A stretch of DNA of 64,000 bases. Source: Cyclobacteriaceae bacterium (GTDB taxonomy: Bacteria; Bacteroidota; Bacteroidia; Cytophagales; Cyclobacteriaceae). Below, piece after piece: positions 11,022 through 17,138 of the stretch (the stretch's first letter is position 1; each line of letters starts with the position of its first letter). The stretch covers positions 62,001 to 126,000 of the forward strand of contig JAEUUF010000013.1 of assembly GCA_016787645.1 (NCBI GenBank), written 5' to 3'. Under the pieces are notes generated by a model. It was not told the origin of the DNA and searched no databases. It saw nothing but the letters and a program-made list of their open reading frames with translations. Position numbers and translations under genes: made by a program.

Positions 11022-12704
11022 TTATGCCCTTTTTGCTTCTTCTTCCTTCAGGGTGCGCCGAAGAATCTTCCCGACGTTGGACTTGGGTAGCTCTTTGCGG
11101 AATTCAAAATGCCGCGGAACCTTGTAATTGGTAAGGTTTTCATGACAAAAGGACCGCAATTCATCCTCGGTTAGCGATGCATCGCGCTTCACCACGAATG
11201 CCTTGATGGCCTCCCCTGACTTTGCATCCGGAACGCCGATGGCTGCCACCTCATGCACTTTGGGATGAGAGGCCAGCACATTCTCGATCTCATTGGGATA
11301 CACATTGAATCCGGAAACCTTGATCATGTCCTTCTTGCGGTCCACGATCTTGAAGAATCCTTCTGGATCCATGATCCCGATGTCGCCGGTGCGGAACCAC
11401 TCTTTATGAAAGAATACTCCCTCGTTATCTTTTTGCCAATAACCGCGCATCACCTGGGGGCCGCGTGCGCAGATCTCGCCGGTTTGCCCCTGTGGCAACT
11501 GATTGCCGTCATCATCAAATATCGCCAGCTCGGTCGACGGCATGGGAATGCCAATCGTACCCCGCTTGTGTTTTCCATTCAAGGGATTACAACTGAGTAC
11601 GGGAGAGGTCTCGCTTAATCCATATCCTTCTGCGATCGGGGTACCCGTAACTTCTTCCCATCGTGAAGCCACCACATCCTGCACCGCCATAGCTCCACCG
11701 ATAGCGCCGTGCAGTTGGGAAAAATCACACTTCCTGAATTCCGCATTATCCAGTAACGCATTAAATAGTGTATTCACACCCGTAAGAATAGTGAAGCGAT
11801 GCTTCCGAAGCTCCTTGACAAAACTAGGGATATCACGGGGATTGGTAATCAACACATTTTTTACCCCGGAAGAATACATGAGAACGCCGTTAACCGTCAG
11901 TCCAAAACTGTGGTACAGCGGGATTGCGGTGATCATGATGTCTTCTTTGAAATGCTCACGGAGGTATGGGCTGAACCAATGCGTCACCATCATGTTGTGC
12001 GCAATGATATTGCGATGTGACAACTGCGCACCCTTCGCCACGCCGGTAGTTCCACCCGTGTATTGCAACACCGCAAGATCTTCAGCGTCCACCACCGGTT
12101 TGTTGTACTTGAGACTCTTGCCCCGATCAACAACTTGCATGAACGGGATTGCACCCGGAAGCCGGTAAGCAGGAACAAGTTTCTTGATTTTTCGAACAAC
12201 GAAATTAACGATCGCACCTTTCAGCGGGCCAAGCATGTCACCCAGGCCTGTGACAATGATGTGCCTGGCCTGTATCCGCTCACGAATATGCTCCAGGTGC
12301 TGCGCAAAATTTTCAAGGATGATAATGGCCGATACGCCTGCATCCGTGAATTGGTGTTCCATTTCCCGCGGAGTGTAGAGCGGGTTGGTATTGACGACAA
12401 TCAACCCTGCCTTCCAACATCCGAAGAGTGCTATCGGAAACTGAAGCACGTTGGGCAACTGAATAGCGATGCGATCGCCTTTCATGAGGCCGAGTTCGCG
12501 CTGCAGGTAAGCGGCAAAGGCGGTGGATAACTGATCTACTTGTTGATACGTCAGGCTACGACCCATGTTCACATAAGCCACACGGTCACTGAATTTCTTG
12601 CCGGCGACTTCAACGAGCTCGATCAGGTTGCTGTATTCCAGCGGGCCGATCTCCGGCGGGATGCCATCCGGATAACTCGCCAACCAGGGAAATGACTTCG
12701 ACAT
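11022..12704 (-). CDS. fadD: Long-chain fatty-acid--CoA ligase (AMP-binding)
   Basis: A 560-residue ANL-superfamily enzyme that activates fatty acids to acyl-CoA through an acyl-adenylate. The P-loop-like A3 motif YTGGTTGVAKG is at 215-225, followed by GYGLSETSPVLSCN (A5). Then come FRTGDIGIMDPEGFFKIVDRKKDMIKVSGFNVYPNEIE (A7-A8) and the C-terminal lysine motif PKSNVGKILRR (A10). Length and the LGLMKGDRIAIQLPN region match bacterial FadD. It lacks a signal and acts at the inner membrane face. No beta-oxidation genes are adjacent. Its start at 12704 is preceded on the same strand by the tRNA-like RNA gene, whose terminator separates the two transcripts. Confidence 0.93.
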   Translation of the reverse strand: MSKSFPWLASYPDGIPPEIGPLEYSNLIELVEVAGKKFSDRVAYVNMGRSLTYQQVDQLSTAFAAYLQRELGLMKGDRIAIQLPNVLQFPIALFGCWKAGLIVVNTNPLYTPREMEHQFTDAGVSAIIILENFAQHLEHIRERIQARHIIVTGLGDMLGPLKGAIVNFVVRKIKKLVPAYRLPGAIPFMQVVDRGKSLKYNKPVVDAEDLAVLQYTGGTTGVAKGAQLSHRNIIAHNMMVTHWFSPYLREHFKEDIMITAIPLYHSFGLTVNGVLMYSSGVKNVLITNPRDIPSFVKELRKHRFTILTGVNTLFNALLDNAEFRKCDFSQLHGAIGGAMAVQDVVASRWEEVTGTPIAEGYGLSETSPVLSCNPLNGKHKRGTIGIPMPSTELAIFDDDGNQLPQGQTGEICARGPQVMRGYWQKDNEGVFFHKEWFRTGDIGIMDPEGFFKIVDRKKDMIKVSGFNVYPNEIENVLASHPKVHEVAAIGVPDAKSGEAIKAFVVKRDASLTEDELRSFCHENLTNYKVPRHFEFRKELPKSNVGKILRRTLKEEEAKRA

Positions 12705-12756
12705 ATCGCCCGAAGATGGCTAACAAAAGCTGCGTTTGAAAGTGGGTGGGGCAAAA

Positions 12757-12790
12757 ACAAAACGGGGAGCGCCTTATGGCGACTCCCCGT
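12757..12790 (-). terminator. Rho-independent terminator of the tRNA-like RNA gene
   Basis: Read on the minus strand, an 11-bp arm starting CGGGGAG and ending in CGCC pairs with GGCGCTCCCCG around an ATAA loop (one mismatch), and TTTTGTTTTT follows. It lies 9 nt after the 3' end of the tRNA-like RNA. No T-run exists on the plus strand, which fixes the direction. Confidence 0.85.
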
Positions 12791-12797
12791 TAGAAAG

Positions 12798-12993
12798 CTG
12801 TAGAGGAAGGGCTCGAACCTTCACGAGGCAGTTAGCCACAGGACACGTGATCAACTTGGTGGTCAACCCCCGATCGCCGGTGAAGGCGACCGCTATCCTG
12901 CGTTTATCCCGTATCTGCAAGACCACTTCGGGCCCTGCCGATTCCCTCACCCCCGAGACAGGAGGGCTTGTCTGCCAATTTCAACACCCTACA
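12798..12993 (-). ncRNA. Structured RNA with tRNA(Leu)-like ends and a large internal domain
   Basis: On the minus strand the RNA begins TGTAGGG (12993-12987) and ends CTCTACA (12805-12799). These pair over seven positions like an acceptor stem, and a G discriminator follows. The D-arm (TTG-AAATTGGCAGA-CAA) is almost that of a bacterial tRNA(Leu), and the T-arm GAAGG-TTCGAGC-CCTTC is perfect. An anticodon-like stem CCCTC can pair with GGGGG or GAGGG. Instead of a 12-20 nt variable arm there are about 115 nt more, closed by GGCAG/CTGCC and containing GTGGTC/GACCAC and GGTCGCC/GGCGATC helices. No CCA is encoded. It has a promoter upstream and a terminator downstream. It is not a normal tRNA. 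tmRNA is unlikely, since the G3-U70 pair and an -ALAA tag are absent. The real identity is unknown to me. Confidence 0.65.
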
Positions 12994-13012
12994 GTGTGTG
13001 CGAATTGTGGTT

Positions 13013-13039
13013 CAAAGTAAACACCAGGATGATGCCCAA
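13013..13039 (-). promoter_or_regulatory. Promoter of the tRNA-like RNA gene
   Basis: On the minus strand TTG (13039-13037), a 17-bp spacer and TACTTTG (13019-13013) match the Bacteroidota -33/-7 pattern. Transcription would start about 10-15 nt before the first paired base at 12993, leaving a short 5' leader for RNase P-type trimming. Confidence 0.55.
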
Positions 13040-13059
13040 TTCAATAGATATATAGATTT

Positions 13060-13089
13060 TTTGCATATCATTTAAAATTTATATGCAAA
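13060..13089. promoter_or_regulatory. Palindromic operator between the RNA gene and the Lrp/AsnC regulator
   Basis: TTTGCATAT (13060-13068) and ATATGCAAA (13081-13089) form a perfect 9-bp inverted repeat around a 12-bp AT-only-but-one spacer. It ends 20 bp before the regulator's ATG and starts 20 bp behind the -33 box of the divergent RNA gene. Lrp/AsnC proteins commonly autoregulate from such AT-rich dyads, so this is the likely binding site of the adjacent gene product. Confidence 0.6.
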
Positions 13090-13109
13090 TTGTATCATAA
13101 ATTGAAAAT

Positions 13110-13589
13110 ATGACTAAAAAAGTGGCCCATAACTATACAATTGACAATACGGACCTAAAAATCCTTGACGTTTTGGTCAACGATGCCAAAAAGCCTTACA
13201 CCGAAGTAGCCCGACAGGTATTCGTTTCACAAGGAACCGTGCATGTCCGAATGAATAAGATGATTGAAGCAGGCGTAGTAGAGCGCACTACTTTGAAGAT
13301 TCATTACCATAAACTGGGCTACGACATCACTGCTTTTATCGGTATTTACCTGGAAAAGAGCTCATTGTACGACAAGGTGCTGGAGAAGCTCAAGGCAATC
13401 CCGGAAATCACCAGCATCCACTACACCACAGGCAACTATTCCATGTTTGCCAAAATCCATTGCCGGGATACCAACCACCTCAAGGAGGTCCTCCACGACA
13501 AGATGCAGCAGGTACCCGGTATCGACCGAACCGAGACCATGATTTCGCTGGAGGAATCGCTTGATCGCAACCTCCGCCTGGCCGAATAA
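13110..13589 (+). CDS. Lrp/AsnC family transcriptional regulator
   Basis: The 159-residue product has the usual two parts. The N-terminal winged helix-turn-helix (about residues 8-60) reads DNTDLKILDVLVNDAKKPYTEVARQVFVSQGTVHVRMNKMIEAGVV. The C-terminal RAM/ligand domain (about 70-150) has YDITAFIGIYLEKSS and ITSIHYTTGNYSMFAKIHCRDTNHLKEVL. Members sense amino acids or related metabolites and bind DNA as octamers. The palindrome at 13060-13089 directly upstream suggests autoregulation and possible control of the divergent RNA gene. The suf operon starts 76 bp downstream in the same direction, so read-through or regulation of suf is conceivable but not shown. Confidence 0.92.
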   Translation: MTKKVAHNYTIDNTDLKILDVLVNDAKKPYTEVARQVFVSQGTVHVRMNKMIEAGVVERTTLKIHYHKLGYDITAFIGIYLEKSSLYDKVLEKLKAIPEITSIHYTTGNYSMFAKIHCRDTNHLKEVLHDKMQQVPGIDRTETMISLEESLDRNLRLAE

Positions 13590-13665
13590 ATCATGCGAAT
13601 CTGAACCTTCCGGGGGGATTATTGTTTAATTTTAAGGCTTATTTGAAATTAGTCTAAATAGATAA

Positions 13666-15111
13666 ATGGCTAAGGATGACCATATTATACAGGAGTTCAC
13701 CTCCCGTGAATATGAACATGGCTGGGTTTCGGACCTTGAGGCGGATGCTGCCCCGAAAGGGCTAAGTGAGGATATTGTCCGGTTTATCTCCCGCCGTAAA
13801 TCTGAGCCGGAATGGCTGCTGGAATGGCGCCTCAAGGCATACCGGCATTGGACAACGATGGTCGAACCAAAATGGCCCAATGTCACCTACCCGGCCATCA
13901 ATTACCAGGATATCATTTACTACTCCGCGCCAAAGCAAAAAGCCAGTCCCACCAGCCTGGATGAAATTGACCCTGAACTGCTGAAGACCTTTGAGAAACT
14001 GGGGATCTCGCTCACCGAGCAGAAGCGCCTCAGCGGTATCGCCGTTGATGCTGTGCTTGACAGCGTGTCGGTGGCCACTACGTTCAAGGAGAAGTTGGGC
14101 GAGCTCGGCATCATCTTCTGCTCCTTCAGCGAAGCCGTTCGAGAGCACCCTGACCTGATCAAGAAATACCTGGGCTCGGTCGTTCCGGCTACCGACAATT
14201 ATTTTGCCGCACTCAACTCTGCCGTATTCTCCGACGGTTCATTCTGCTATATCCCCGCCGGTGTCCGTTGCCCCATGGAGTTGTCCACCTACTTCCGGAT
14301 CAATGCTGCCAAGACAGGGCAGTTTGAACGTACCCTGATCGTCGCCGATGAAGGGAGCTACGTGAGCTACCTGGAAGGCTGCACAGCGCCTATGCGCGAT
14401 GAGAACCAGCTTCACGCAGCGGTGGTGGAAATCTACGCCATGAAGAATGCGGAAGTGAAATACTCCACGGTACAGAATTGGTACCCCGGCAACAAGGATG
14501 GCGTCGGGGGCATTTACAACTTCGTCACTAAACGTGGTCTCTGCGCCGGCGATCACGCAAAGATCAGCTGGACCCAGGTTGAAACTGGTTCCGCCATCAC
14601 CTGGAAGTATCCGTCGTGCGTGCTTAAAGGCGACTATTCGGTGGGCGAATTCTATTCCGTCGCTGTAACCAATAATTACCAGCAGGCAGACACGGGCACC
14701 AAGATGATCCACCTCGGAAAAAACACGAAGTCACGAATCGTTTCCAAAGGTATTTCTGCCGGCAAATCGCAAAACAGTTACCGCGGCCAGGTACACGTTC
14801 ACAAGCGAGCCGTTCAATCACGTAATTTCTCGCAGTGTGACTCTCTCCTCCTGGGCGACCAGTGCGGTGCTCATACATTTCCATACATCGATGTGGAAAA
14901 CAGCAGTTCACGCGTGGAGCATGAAGCCACTACCTCTAAAATCGGGGAAGACCAGATCTTTTACTGCCAGCAGCGCGGCATCGATGAAGAATCGGCCGTG
15001 GCGCTGATCGTCAACGGCTACGCCAAAGAAGTGCTGAATCAACTTCCCATGGAATTCGCGGTGGAGGCACAGAAGCTGTTGGCCCTTACACTGGAAGGCA
15101 GTGTAGGATAA
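13666..15111 (+). CDS. sufB: Fe-S cluster assembly scaffold SufB
   Basis: A 481-residue SufB: it contains the C-terminal SufBD core with [23 protein letters not shown] and [43 protein letters not shown]. SufB forms the SufBC2D scaffold that builds Fe-S clusters in the cytoplasm. The motifs CTAP and the conserved C/E residues in [15 protein letters not shown] are present. It is the first gene of a tight operon (sufB-C-D-S-E-DUF59, then a bacilliredoxin), with 15 bp to sufC. The AT-rich leader before the start contains no clear Shine-Dalgarno. Length is as expected. Confidence 0.97.
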
Positions 15112-15126
15112 TCCTCAAGACCCATT

Positions 15127-15885
15127 ATGCTAAAGATTCAAAACCTGCACGCTCAAATTGAAGAGAAACCGATCCTGAACGGAATCAGCCTTACCGTAAA
15201 CGCCGGTGAAGTGCATGCCATCATGGGACCAAACGGTTCGGGCAAAAGCACGTTGGCCGCCACACTCGCCGGGCGCGAAGAATATACGGTGACCCAAGGC
15301 TCAGTGGAATACATGGGCAAGAACCTCCTCGAGATGACTCCCGAAGAGCGTGCCCGTGAAGGGGTTTTCCTCGCTTTCCAATACCCGGTGGAAATTCCCG
15401 GGGTGAGCACCATCAACTTCATGAAGACCGCGCTAAACCAGATCCGCGTACATCGCGGGGAAGCTCCGCTGGATGCCGTCGCTTTCCTCAAGCTCATGAA
15501 AGAGAAAATGAAGCTGGTGGAAATCGATCAATCGTTGCTGAACCGTTCGCTGAACGAGGGATTCTCAGGAGGCGAAAAGAAGCGGAACGAGATTTTCCAG
15601 ATGGCTATGCTTGAACCCCGTTTGTCCATCCTCGATGAAACAGATTCCGGCCTCGATATTGATGCGTTACGAATTGTTGCGCATGGGGTAAATGCCCTTC
15701 GCTCTAAAAACAATGCCACAATCGTGGTTACCCACTACCAGCGCTTGCTGGACTACATTGTTCCTGACTTTGTGCACGTGCTGTATAAAGGGCGCATTGT
15801 AAAATCAGGCACGCGGGAATTGGCCCTCGAACTGGAGGAAAAAGGATATGATTGGATCAAAGCCGACCTGGCCACGGCACGGTAA
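15127..15885 (+). CDS. sufC: Fe-S cluster assembly ATPase SufC
   Basis: A 252-residue ABC-type ATPase that drives conformational change of the SufBC2D scaffold. Walker A is MGPNGSGKSTLAATLAG (about residues 36-52), the signature is LNEGFSGGEKKRNEIFQM, and Walker B is LSILDETDSGLDIDALRIVAHGVN. The H-loop is THYQRLLDYI. It is cytoplasmic, with no transmembrane partner, as expected for SufC. The last base of its stop codon is the first base of the sufD start (TAATG), so the two are translationally coupled. No anomaly is seen. Confidence 0.97.
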   Translation: MLKIQNLHAQIEEKPILNGISLTVNAGEVHAIMGPNGSGKSTLAATLAGREEYTVTQGSVEYMGKNLLEMTPEERAREGVFLAFQYPVEIPGVSTINFMKTALNQIRVHRGEAPLDAVAFLKLMKEKMKLVEIDQSLLNRSLNEGFSGGEKKRNEIFQMAMLEPRLSILDETDSGLDIDALRIVAHGVNALRSKNNATIVVTHYQRLLDYIVPDFVHVLYKGRIVKSGTRELALELEEKGYDWIKADLATAR

Positions 15886-17138
15886 TGGAAGCAGCTACGG
15901 ACAAGAAAAATCTACTGTCACTCCTTGCTGAGGCATTCGATCAGCGTGGGCTGGATCACCATGCCGGTCGCCGAAAAGCCATGGAGTTGTTCTCGGCGAA
16001 AGGATTGCCCACCGCAAAATCTGAAGAATATCGTTTTACCCCGATCGTACGTGCCCTGGAAAGCAATTTCACTGCGATAGCACCTACTAAATCGACCACT
16101 CCGCAGTTCCTCGAACACCTGTGGAGCATGCCCTGCAACCTTGTTGTGTTTATCAACGGAGTTTATTCGGCAACTCATTCTATTCTTCTTGATCCACACA
16201 TCAAGATCACCCGGGCTGAAATAGGAACTACACTGCTGAGCGAAGATCCGTTCGCCTTGCTGAATCACGCATTCGCAGAAACGGAGGTGACGATTGAAGT
16301 GCCCCCCCATCACACGATCGAACAACCCCTGGCTGTGGTGTATTGCTTTGACCAACCTTCCTTCATTTTTGCCAATCCACGATGGACCTGCCGGATCGGA
16401 GCCGGGAGCAAACTCTCCGTCCTGGAATATACTCTTGCTGAATCATCGTCCCCCTACTTCAACAATAAGCAATCATTCATTGAGGTGGGTGAACATACAA
16501 TACTGGAATTGACAACCCTCCAACAAGGAAGTAAAGACGAAGTGCTTGTGAACAACTCCTTGGTCAACATGGCCTCATCCTCACGTGCGTACTGCTACAC
16601 CGGAACATTGGAAGGCAAGCTCGTCCGAAACAACCTCACCTTGCTCATCGATGGCGAAGGTATTGATGCCCACCTCCATGGCTTATACCTGGTCGGCGGC
16701 AGCAGCCTGGTAGACAATCATACCGTGGTTGATCACCGCAAACCCAATTCGCAGAGCAATGAACTATACAAAGGGGTGATGGATGGGAACGGCAAAGCGG
16801 TTTTCAATGGAAAAATATTTGTTCGGCCGGATGCGCAGAAGACAAACGCTTTTCAATCTAATCGCAACATTCTGTTAAGTGAAGCCAGCAACATTCATAC
16901 AAAACCCCAACTTGAAATCTGGGCAGATGATGTGAAGTGTTCACATGGGTGTACTACCGGGCAACTGGATGAAGAAGCACTTTTTTACCTCCGTTCAAGA
17001 GGCTTGGCCAAAGACACCGCCAAAGGGATGCTGCTGAACGCATTTGCCAGTGAGACGCTGGAAGGAATTCCGAATGAATCGATCCGGGCGCAAGTCAACC
17101 AGTTGATTCAAAATAAGCTTCACCCTACCATCGAGTGA
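15885..17138 (+). CDS. sufD: Fe-S cluster assembly protein SufD
   Basis: A 417-residue SufD, paralogue of SufB and scaffold partner. The C-terminal core reads KPQLEIWADDVKCSHGCTTGQLDEEALFYLRSRGLAKDTAKGMLLNAFASETLEGIP, which is diagnostic, and KAVFNGKIFVRPDAQKTNAFQSNRNILLS precedes it. The N-terminal helical part (KGLPTAKSEEYRFTPI) is also typical. I placed the start at ATG 15885, overlapping the sufC stop by one base. An upstream in-frame ATG at 15852 would overlap sufC by 34 bp and adds a non-family sequence. The stop overlaps the sufS start (TGATG). Confidence 0.96.
   Translation: MEAATDKKNLLSLLAEAFDQRGLDHHAGRRKAMELFSAKGLPTAKSEEYRFTPIVRALESNFTAIAPTKSTTPQFLEHLWSMPCNLVVFINGVYSATHSILLDPHIKITRAEIGTTLLSEDPFALLNHAFAETEVTIEVPPHHTIEQPLAVVYCFDQPSFIFANPRWTCRIGAGSKLSVLEYTLAESSSPYFNNKQSFIEVGEHTILELTTLQQGSKDEVLVNNSLVNMASSSRAYCYTGTLEGKLVRNNLTLLIDGEGIDAHLHGLYLVGGSSLVDNHTVVDHRKPNSQSNELYKGVMDGNGKAVFNGKIFVRPDAQKTNAFQSNRNILLSEASNIHTKPQLEIWADDVKCSHGCTTGQLDEEALFYLRSRGLAKDTAKGMLLNAFASETLEGIPNESIRAQVNQLIQNKLHPTIE

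Follow-up and report, generated by a model that had tools for sequence, protein, structure and literature searches.

A gene for a tRNA-like RNA was found on the minus strand of the window (the whole 64,000-nt stretch of DNA that was analysed), where positions 12797..12993 encode a complete cloverleaf with a 7-bp acceptor stem, D arm, anticodon arm, T arm, G73 and C74. At 197 nt, this RNA is among the longest members of its family. On one side lies a divergent gene for an AsnC-type regulator, followed by sufB, sufC and sufD (window 13110-17138); on the other lies a minus-strand gene (11022-12704) that looks like a long-chain fatty acid-CoA ligase. Features of the locus are as follows:

13110..13589, plus strand: divergent AsnC-type regulator gene (Pfam PF01037, PF13404)
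13039-13037, minus strand: -33 box TTG, from sequence
13013..13019, minus strand: -7 promoter box TACTTTG, 17-bp spacer to the -33 box
12797..12993, minus strand: tRNA-like RNA from position 1 (T) to encoded C74, from sequence and alignments
12987..12993, minus strand: acceptor stem 5′ strand TGTAGGG (U1, G2, U3), pairing with CTCTACA
12968..12984, minus strand: D arm of Leu type, loop AAATTGGCAGA; the D stem covaries
12950..12966, minus strand: anticodon arm CCCTC-CTGTCTC-GGGGG (5-bp stem, 7-nt tRNA-Asp-like loop)
12823..12949, minus strand: giant variable arm, 127 nt here, from alignment
about 12914..12942, minus strand: 29-nt insertion, in this genome alone among 25 aligned rows
12911-12909 with 12831-12829, minus strand: 3-bp helix CGG/CTG flanking the internal loop, covarying beyond shuffles
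12903..12908, minus strand: GATAAA strand of the conserved internal loop GAYAAA/CTAA
12838..12902, minus strand: inner helix GCAGGA/TCCTGT and apical region with GGGTTGACCAC motif, from covariation
12901-12896 with 12843-12838, minus strand: strands GCAGGA and TCCTGT of the inner helix, conserved and nested
12832..12835, minus strand: CTAA strand of the internal loop, from alignment
12806..12822, minus strand: T arm GAAGG-TTCGAGC-CCTTC, from covariation alignments
12799..12805, minus strand: acceptor stem 3′ strand CTCTACA, from covariation
12797..12798, minus strand: G73 discriminator (12798) and encoded C74 (12797), no C75A76
12753..12790, minus strand: intrinsic terminator, from sequence

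TAnnTTTG is the Bacteroidota-type -7 promoter box, and it occurs in 55 of 91 intergenic regions against 8.75 in shuffles, while a hairpin and T run lie downstream of 93 of 202 homologues against 13 in shuffles. Among the 60-nt leaders of the family, 43 of 202 contain the hexamer GTTCTT, which we take to resemble the boxA of rRNA leaders (2.35 in shuffles).

ARAGORN called no tRNA on the window and Rfam gave no match at gathering score there. A search of 12700-13100 returned only two weak Rfam matches (E 2 and 7.6), almost wholly upstream of the RNA, and none of 19 Rfam matches on 11 loci with family members fell on a member. The RNA did not match the tmRNA model (ARAGORN, Rfam), and a tRNA with a group I intron was rejected because the cloverleaf is complete, with the insert in its variable arm, and no Rfam intron model matches.

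The RNA family and its fold

Sequence comparison is decisive: the RNA is genuine, it is one of a large family, and both the family and its fold are established. An initial DNA search gave matches in 26 of 39 genomes, own genome counted. The 25-sequence alignment was converted into a covariance model and used in an order search (241 genomes) and a phylum search (395 genomes), yielding tallies of 224 and 327, in both of which ordinary tRNAs are counted. Ordinary tRNAs reach about 60 bits in the phylum search (23-47 bits for the genome's own, Leu highest), and long-arm bacterial members score 87-171 bits. A pattern scan of named genomes found at least 120 stretches. Hymenobacter, Spirosoma, Algoriphagus, Chitinophaga, Mucilaginibacter, Pedobacter and Saprospiraceae were among the matches listed, as were two MAGs titled Flavobacteriales and one titled Ignavibacteriales; in the order search, the small-genome families f8 and f21 gave nothing clearly over ordinary tRNA scores. 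No Rfam family matched it on the window or the 11 loci, and it is undescribed in the titles and abstract openings that our literature search covered, a body of text with few subscription papers and no bioRxiv preprints.

From about 152 loci, 206 distinct bacterial sequences were parsed and 205 kept after one was dropped on a stem test; the kept set includes three with a misread anticodon loop and L199:303-414 (24 bits, no G73), a decayed copy or non-member, and is redundant, with many rows drawn from a single genus or a single tandem array. Of 161 fetched loci (151 distinct), 45 contain the RNA in multiple copies. One 77-nt family member (L132:539-615, genome G036, family f13) lacks the long variable arm; its loop is CTATCTC.

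MFE folding of the single sequence was not above chance (z -0.87; 37/200 shuffles equally good). Across the 25 homologous sequences, 96.6% of cells pair, changes on both sides occur in 14 of 30 pairs and no covariation measure was reached by shuffles (0/500). In 104 distinct rows from named organisms, fitted to the covariance model, 20 of 29 pairs show such changes (0/500 shuffles) and every modelled stem (six in all) contains two or more of these pairs; 20 of the 104 rows fail one of five anticodon-stem pairs. The variable arm is 39-127 nt long in 200 readable bacterial members and longest here. Four of its parts are constant: the basal stem, the 3-bp helix, the GAYAAA/CUAA internal loop and the inner helix, the last of which varies in length. 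The arm helices were tested on the 117 sequences, out of 204, in which the motif is unambiguous. Every pair of the 3-bp helix and, in the inner helix, pairs one and three beat all 1000 shuffles; inner pair two, read in the fixed register of the test, did not. A palindromic repeat around CCCGATAGCTATCGGGA was observed in two settings, the D loop of a degenerate RNA copy upstream in L011 and the variable arms of copies in L122. The arm of L011 contains a near match to it, as if a small mobile repeat were tolerated at these places.

Much of the preliminary description of this locus agrees with these results. It had proposed a gene running from promoter (-33 and -7 boxes, 17-bp spacer) to intrinsic terminator, with tRNA(Leu)-like ends and an extra domain at the variable-arm position; the boxes and terminator are there, as are the 7-bp acceptor stem, Leu-type D arm and T arm, and a 127-nt variable arm sits within a complete cloverleaf. 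Neither a confident Rfam match to a known class nor a lack of compensatory changes, outcomes that it had named as refuting, was observed. The details of its internal fold fared less well. The supposed pseudoknot CAGGA/TCCTG is in fact part of the nested helix GCAGGA/TCCTGT, and GGCAG/CTGCC and GTGGTC/GACCAC drop out of the conserved fold, as they need the 29-nt insertion; GACCAC itself is conserved in many alignment rows that have no such insertion. GGTCGCC/GGCGATC survives as a peripheral hairpin, but in only part of the family. Two of the identities it had entertained can be set aside: an interrupted tRNA, given the complete cloverleaf and the five Leu isoacceptors elsewhere in the genome, and a divergent known ncRNA, given that no known class matches in Rfam on the window or the 11 loci.

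Phages also carry the RNA, often near tRNA genes. In a phage database, one of 50,697 records matched, a 636-kb uncultured phage; plasmid records gave no match to the RNA. A pattern scan of IMG/VR found at least 120 stretches; its contigs are viral by prediction, and host DNA may be among them. A match scoring 75 bits or more is present in 79 of the 81 viral loci examined, some of them truncated at a contig end. ARAGORN found at least one tRNA or tmRNA gene in 22 of 33 viral loci, seven or more in 12 and an ordinary tRNA-Asp in six; one of its calls in L402 is the RNA itself, labelled tRNA-Asp(gtc). Short phage forms of 91-96 nt in total (L402:2909-3004; 96-nt forms in L354, L366, L370 and L397) have a variable arm near ordinary length and may be ancestral or reduced.

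The regulator gene, of Lrp/AsnC type, is a frequent companion. Its best NCBIfam model is AsnC (2.5e-47; 160.6 bits, below the curated cut-off of 227) and its best solved structure is E. coli AsnC 2cg4 (E 3e-34), the next reaching 4.7e-23 and E. coli Lrp 1.2e-8. In a first count, all 91 detected AsnC-type genes were divergent from the RNA and 112-252 bp away; of the 131 distinct loci whose upstream sequence extends to 700 bp or more, 98 have an AsnC-type gene as divergent neighbour and 33 have none adjacent. Position alone suggests that the AsnC-type protein may regulate the RNA. A SufB cluster lies near the RNA in 29 loci.

Anticodon loop and identity bases

The preliminary description had rightly seen that the loop CTGTCTC is not a Leu anticodon: it is of tRNA-Asp type, CUGUCUC here against CUGUCAC in the genome's own tRNA-Asp, with position 37 the sole difference. 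In the 201 readable loops of bacterial members, U35, C36 and C38 are invariant, G34 is found in 176 (A, C or U in the other 25) and U33 in 172 (absent from 29), and position 37 is U in 176, C in 19, G in six and never A; the sole clear copy listed for genome G143 has U34. Bacterial members longer than 100 nt carry U1-A72 in 203/204, G2-C71 and U3-A70 in 204/204, G73 in 203/204 and C74 in 204/204, with the full CCA encoded in 18/204. The D loop has GGCAG in 201/204 bacterial members, which implies no U20a in our numbering. Exceptions to the combination of U1-A72 and no U20a are L166:191-315 and three of 59 distinct phage copies with A1-U72; G34, U35, C36 and C38 are present in all 59.

The family resembles bacterial (type II) tRNA-Leu in its D arm and core, and the model's five best ordinary matches in the genome are Leu tRNAs, but its variable arm (39-127 nt), its anticodon loop, G73 and U1-A72 set it apart from tRNA-Leu. 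tRNA-Leu has a Leu anticodon and A73; this identity was rejected on the NUC loop, G73 in 203/204 members and the five Leu isoacceptors elsewhere in the genome. To tRNA-Asp(GUC) the likeness lies in the anticodon loop save position 37, G73 and G2-C71, and the difference in the body, the variable arm and U1-A72 for G1-C72. The allo-tRNAs and selC* tRNAs, reviewed in PMC7609411, are likewise unusual long-arm bacterial tRNAs; the RNA has 7/5 acceptor/T stems, unlike the 8/4 or 9/3 of allo-tRNAs, and a far larger arm, and that class was rejected on its stems.

Several features point to tRNA-like maturation. The 7/5 acceptor-T stack, the TTCGA T loop and a 3′ end like that of local tRNAs match, in sequence, what tRNA processing calls for, and the 38 own tRNAs printed all end N73-C74, nine of them encoding the whole CCA by reading. 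C74 and the local-tRNA-like 3′ end suggest that the RNA is probably matured like a tRNA. Decoding tRNAs carry U33 and a purine at position 37; with U33 not kept and position 37 never A, decoding is unlikely, and the RNA probably does not read codons. Apart from this RNA, the genome encodes an ordinary tRNA-Asp and a full set of five Leu isoacceptors.

PMC9976931 gives G73, G34, U35, C36 and C38 as AspRS determinants, G1-C72 and G2-C71 as conserved in bacterial tRNA-Asp, and U1-A72 as conferring amidation of Asp-tRNA, which G1-C72 and U20a oppose. As expected of a putative AspRS substrate, the family has G73, U35, C36 and C38; in place of the G1-C72 of tRNA-Asp, however, 203/204 members have U1-A72, which may weaken AspRS recognition. 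U1-A72 and the lack of U20a are the features predicted for a GatCAB substrate. Among the 38 own tRNAs printed, U1 occurs only in tRNA-Asn, which carries U1-A72, and tRNA-Gln. The AspRS of RNA-positive and RNA-negative genomes (30 genomes; 29 sequences read, G303 missing) showed no difference at the anticodon-domain sites compared, which we take to be discriminating.

GatB, GlnRS and asparagine synthetases across genomes

Eighty genomes were hand-picked for completeness and spread before any GatB result: 47 RNA-positive (best E 2.3e-24 or lower) and 33 RNA-negative (best E 8.8e-15 or higher, or none). AsnRS is present in all 80. GatB was found in 47/47 RNA-positive and 19/33 RNA-negative genomes (a fragment in G112 counted), and GlnRS exceeded the cut-off in 28/47 and 16/33, respectively. 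All 36 genomes without GlnRS have GatB, as expected if GatCAB must make Gln-tRNA there.

When the genomes were split by GlnRS, a division decided after the GatB counts had been seen, intact GatB accompanied GlnRS in 28/28 RNA-positive and 1/16 RNA-negative genomes (Fisher 7e-11, a value that, like the one below, overstates independence because the genomes are related). These 16 RNA-negative genomes comprise G083, where GatB and GlnRS are present and the RNA was not found, G112 (f15), whose GatB is reduced to a frameshifted stretch of about 105 aa on contig C99 (L342), and 14 without GatB. Set against this relatedness, the RNA and GatB are jointly absent from G264 and G609 (f23) and from G279 and G373 (f24), and both are present in the other sampled members of f23 (two) and f24 (three).

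AsnA was found in 4/47 RNA-positive genomes (one under the curated cut-off) and 4/33 RNA-negative genomes. AsnB-type paralogues over the TIGR01536 cut-off do not separate the groups (41/47 and 26/33), and those of RNA-positive genomes might make asparagine. A narrower test, chosen after that result, used as query the 560-aa protein of G264, which has an E. coli-like length and which we take to be like E. coli AsnB: close homologues occur in 0/47 RNA-positive and 11/33 RNA-negative genomes, one of the 11 (G291) with a stop inside the match. Where GlnRS is present, AsnA or a close AsnB homologue was found in 0/28 RNA-positive and 10/16 RNA-negative genomes (Fisher 3e-6), leaving 6/16 of the latter with neither the RNA nor a dedicated asparagine synthetase. 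The 36 genomes without GlnRS show no such contrast (4/19 RNA-positive, 3/17 RNA-negative), and the 17 RNA-negative ones manage without the RNA while having GatB. The link to GatCAB and asparagine is strong in genomes with GlnRS, but indirect.

Part of the background is set out in PMC4206432, which reports GatCAB kept beside AsnRS and GlnRS in 67-68 of 547 genera, suggests asparagine synthesis on tRNA-Asn in those without asparagine synthetase, some Bacteroidetes included, and considers GatCAB perhaps vestigial in delta-proteobacteria with asparagine synthetases.

Candidate role and alternatives

On balance, we favour the reading that this tRNA-like RNA does not decode and instead serves tRNA-dependent asparagine formation, being charged by AspRS and amidated by GatCAB. 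This reading draws on U1-A72 together with the aspartate-identity bases, the AsnC-type neighbour and the pattern of GatB and asparagine synthetases in genomes with GlnRS. The RNA would be transcribed under control of the divergent regulator, then trimmed and CCA-tailed as a tRNA. AspRS would recognise the aspartate-type anticodon loop and G73 and attach aspartate, and GatCAB would recognise U1-A72 and amidate Asp-RNA to Asn-RNA. Kept from translation, as U33 and position 37 suggest, the RNA would supply asparagine, freed or handed on. The large arm with its GAYAAA/CUAA loop would probably act as an AspRS-GatCAB docking site or as a block to ribosome entry. Counting against this reading are the 25 of 201 loops that lack G34, a strong Asp determinant, the U1-A72 that stands where tRNA-Asp has G1-C72, the phage copies with A1-U72, the likeness of AspRS in both groups of genomes and the 33 loci with no adjacent AsnC-type gene; so do G083, the six genomes with GlnRS that have neither the RNA nor a dedicated synthetase, the other AsnB-type paralogues and the missing contrast among genomes without GlnRS.

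Such a route would resemble tRNA-dependent asparagine biosynthesis by the Asn transamidosome (AspRS, tRNA-Asn and GatCAB) in U1-A72, the Asp-type determinants, the use of GatCAB and the lack of dedicated asparagine synthetases in the RNA-positive genomes with GlnRS that were tested. It would differ in its carrier: there a decoding tRNA-Asn, with a non-discriminating AspRS needed; here a dedicated RNA with an Asp loop and a giant variable arm, unfit for decoding. There is also a likeness to asnC and asnA of E. coli, which are arranged divergently: in both cases an AsnC-type regulator adjoins a gene for asparagine formation (proposed, in our case), but its partner here is an RNA gene rather than asparagine synthetase A. 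E. coli AsnC activates asnA, and asparagine lowers that activation, according to PMC8707732.

The preliminary description had also offered an unusual tRNA-like regulatory RNA, the best of its options: "tRNA-like" stands, and "regulatory" survives as a rival, in which a tRNA mimic binds AspRS or GatCAB, or acts with AsnC, and senses aspartate or asparagine supply without itself being an intermediate. (That description did not include the Asp-type identity of the loop, the U1-A72 pair, the AsnC-type gene transcribed divergently or the occurrence across many bacteria and phages.) The divergent AsnC-type gene, the large structured arm with its conserved internal loop and the occurrence of multiple copies at 45 of the 161 loci would suit a regulator. 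A pure binder, however, would have no need of the near-invariant U1-A72 and encoded C74, and the near-confinement of intact GatB to RNA-positive genomes among those with GlnRS suggests a substrate; we regard this alternative as unlikely.

Rather improbable, in our judgement, is that GatCAB makes asparagine on ordinary tRNA-Asn via a non-discriminating AspRS, the RNA accompanying the pathway in another role. The genome's own tRNA-Asn does carry U1-A72, and PMC4206432 makes this suggestion for bacteria with AsnRS, GlnRS and GatCAB and no asparagine synthetase. Against it, the RNA itself combines U1-A72 with an Asp loop, the AspRS sequences of RNA-positive genomes have no distinguishing feature, and GatB and the RNA are both absent from 15 of the 16 RNA-negative genomes with GlnRS (the G112 remnant taken as lost).

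Some non-decoding tRNAs donate amino acids to acceptors such as cell wall, lipid or peptide, and the identity bases and non-decoding loop also fit donation of aspartate or asparagine. No transferase stood out among the neighbour clusters found in at least five loci, most of them named by eye only, and the missing asparagine synthetases of RNA-positive genomes with GlnRS fit amino-acid supply better, which makes donation quite doubtful.

A decoding or suppressor tRNA with an oversized variable arm, reading Asp codons or misreading, could claim the formal anticodon GUC, the phage copies near tRNA genes and the ARAGORN label of the L402 form; the absence of U33 from 29/201 loops, the lack of A37 in 201/201 and the ordinary tRNA-Asp in the genome and in 6/33 viral loci scanned make it very unlikely. 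Least credible is a carrier for glutamate-to-glutamine conversion, for which the GatCAB link and the U35 and C36 shared with Glu anticodons might speak, since G2-C71 and C38 are not the Glu set of PMC9976931, the GatB link holds where GlnRS is present and the neighbour is AsnC-type.

Asparagine formation on the RNA remains the reading we prefer. We hold a wider version of it only tentatively, as plausible rather than as something to assert: the RNA would be a tRNA descendant gone from translation, with support of the conversion of aspartate to asparagine as its sole role, taking the place of asparagine synthetase in much of Bacteroidota, next to an AsnC-type regulator, and carried by phages to raise asparagine supply. 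To our knowledge, the known amidations of amino acids on tRNA all happen on decoding tRNAs. If the proposal is true, a separate RNA kept for amidation would be a new type of RNA cofactor, and it would bear on why some bacteria with AsnRS and GlnRS keep GatCAB, a point raised in PMC4206432.
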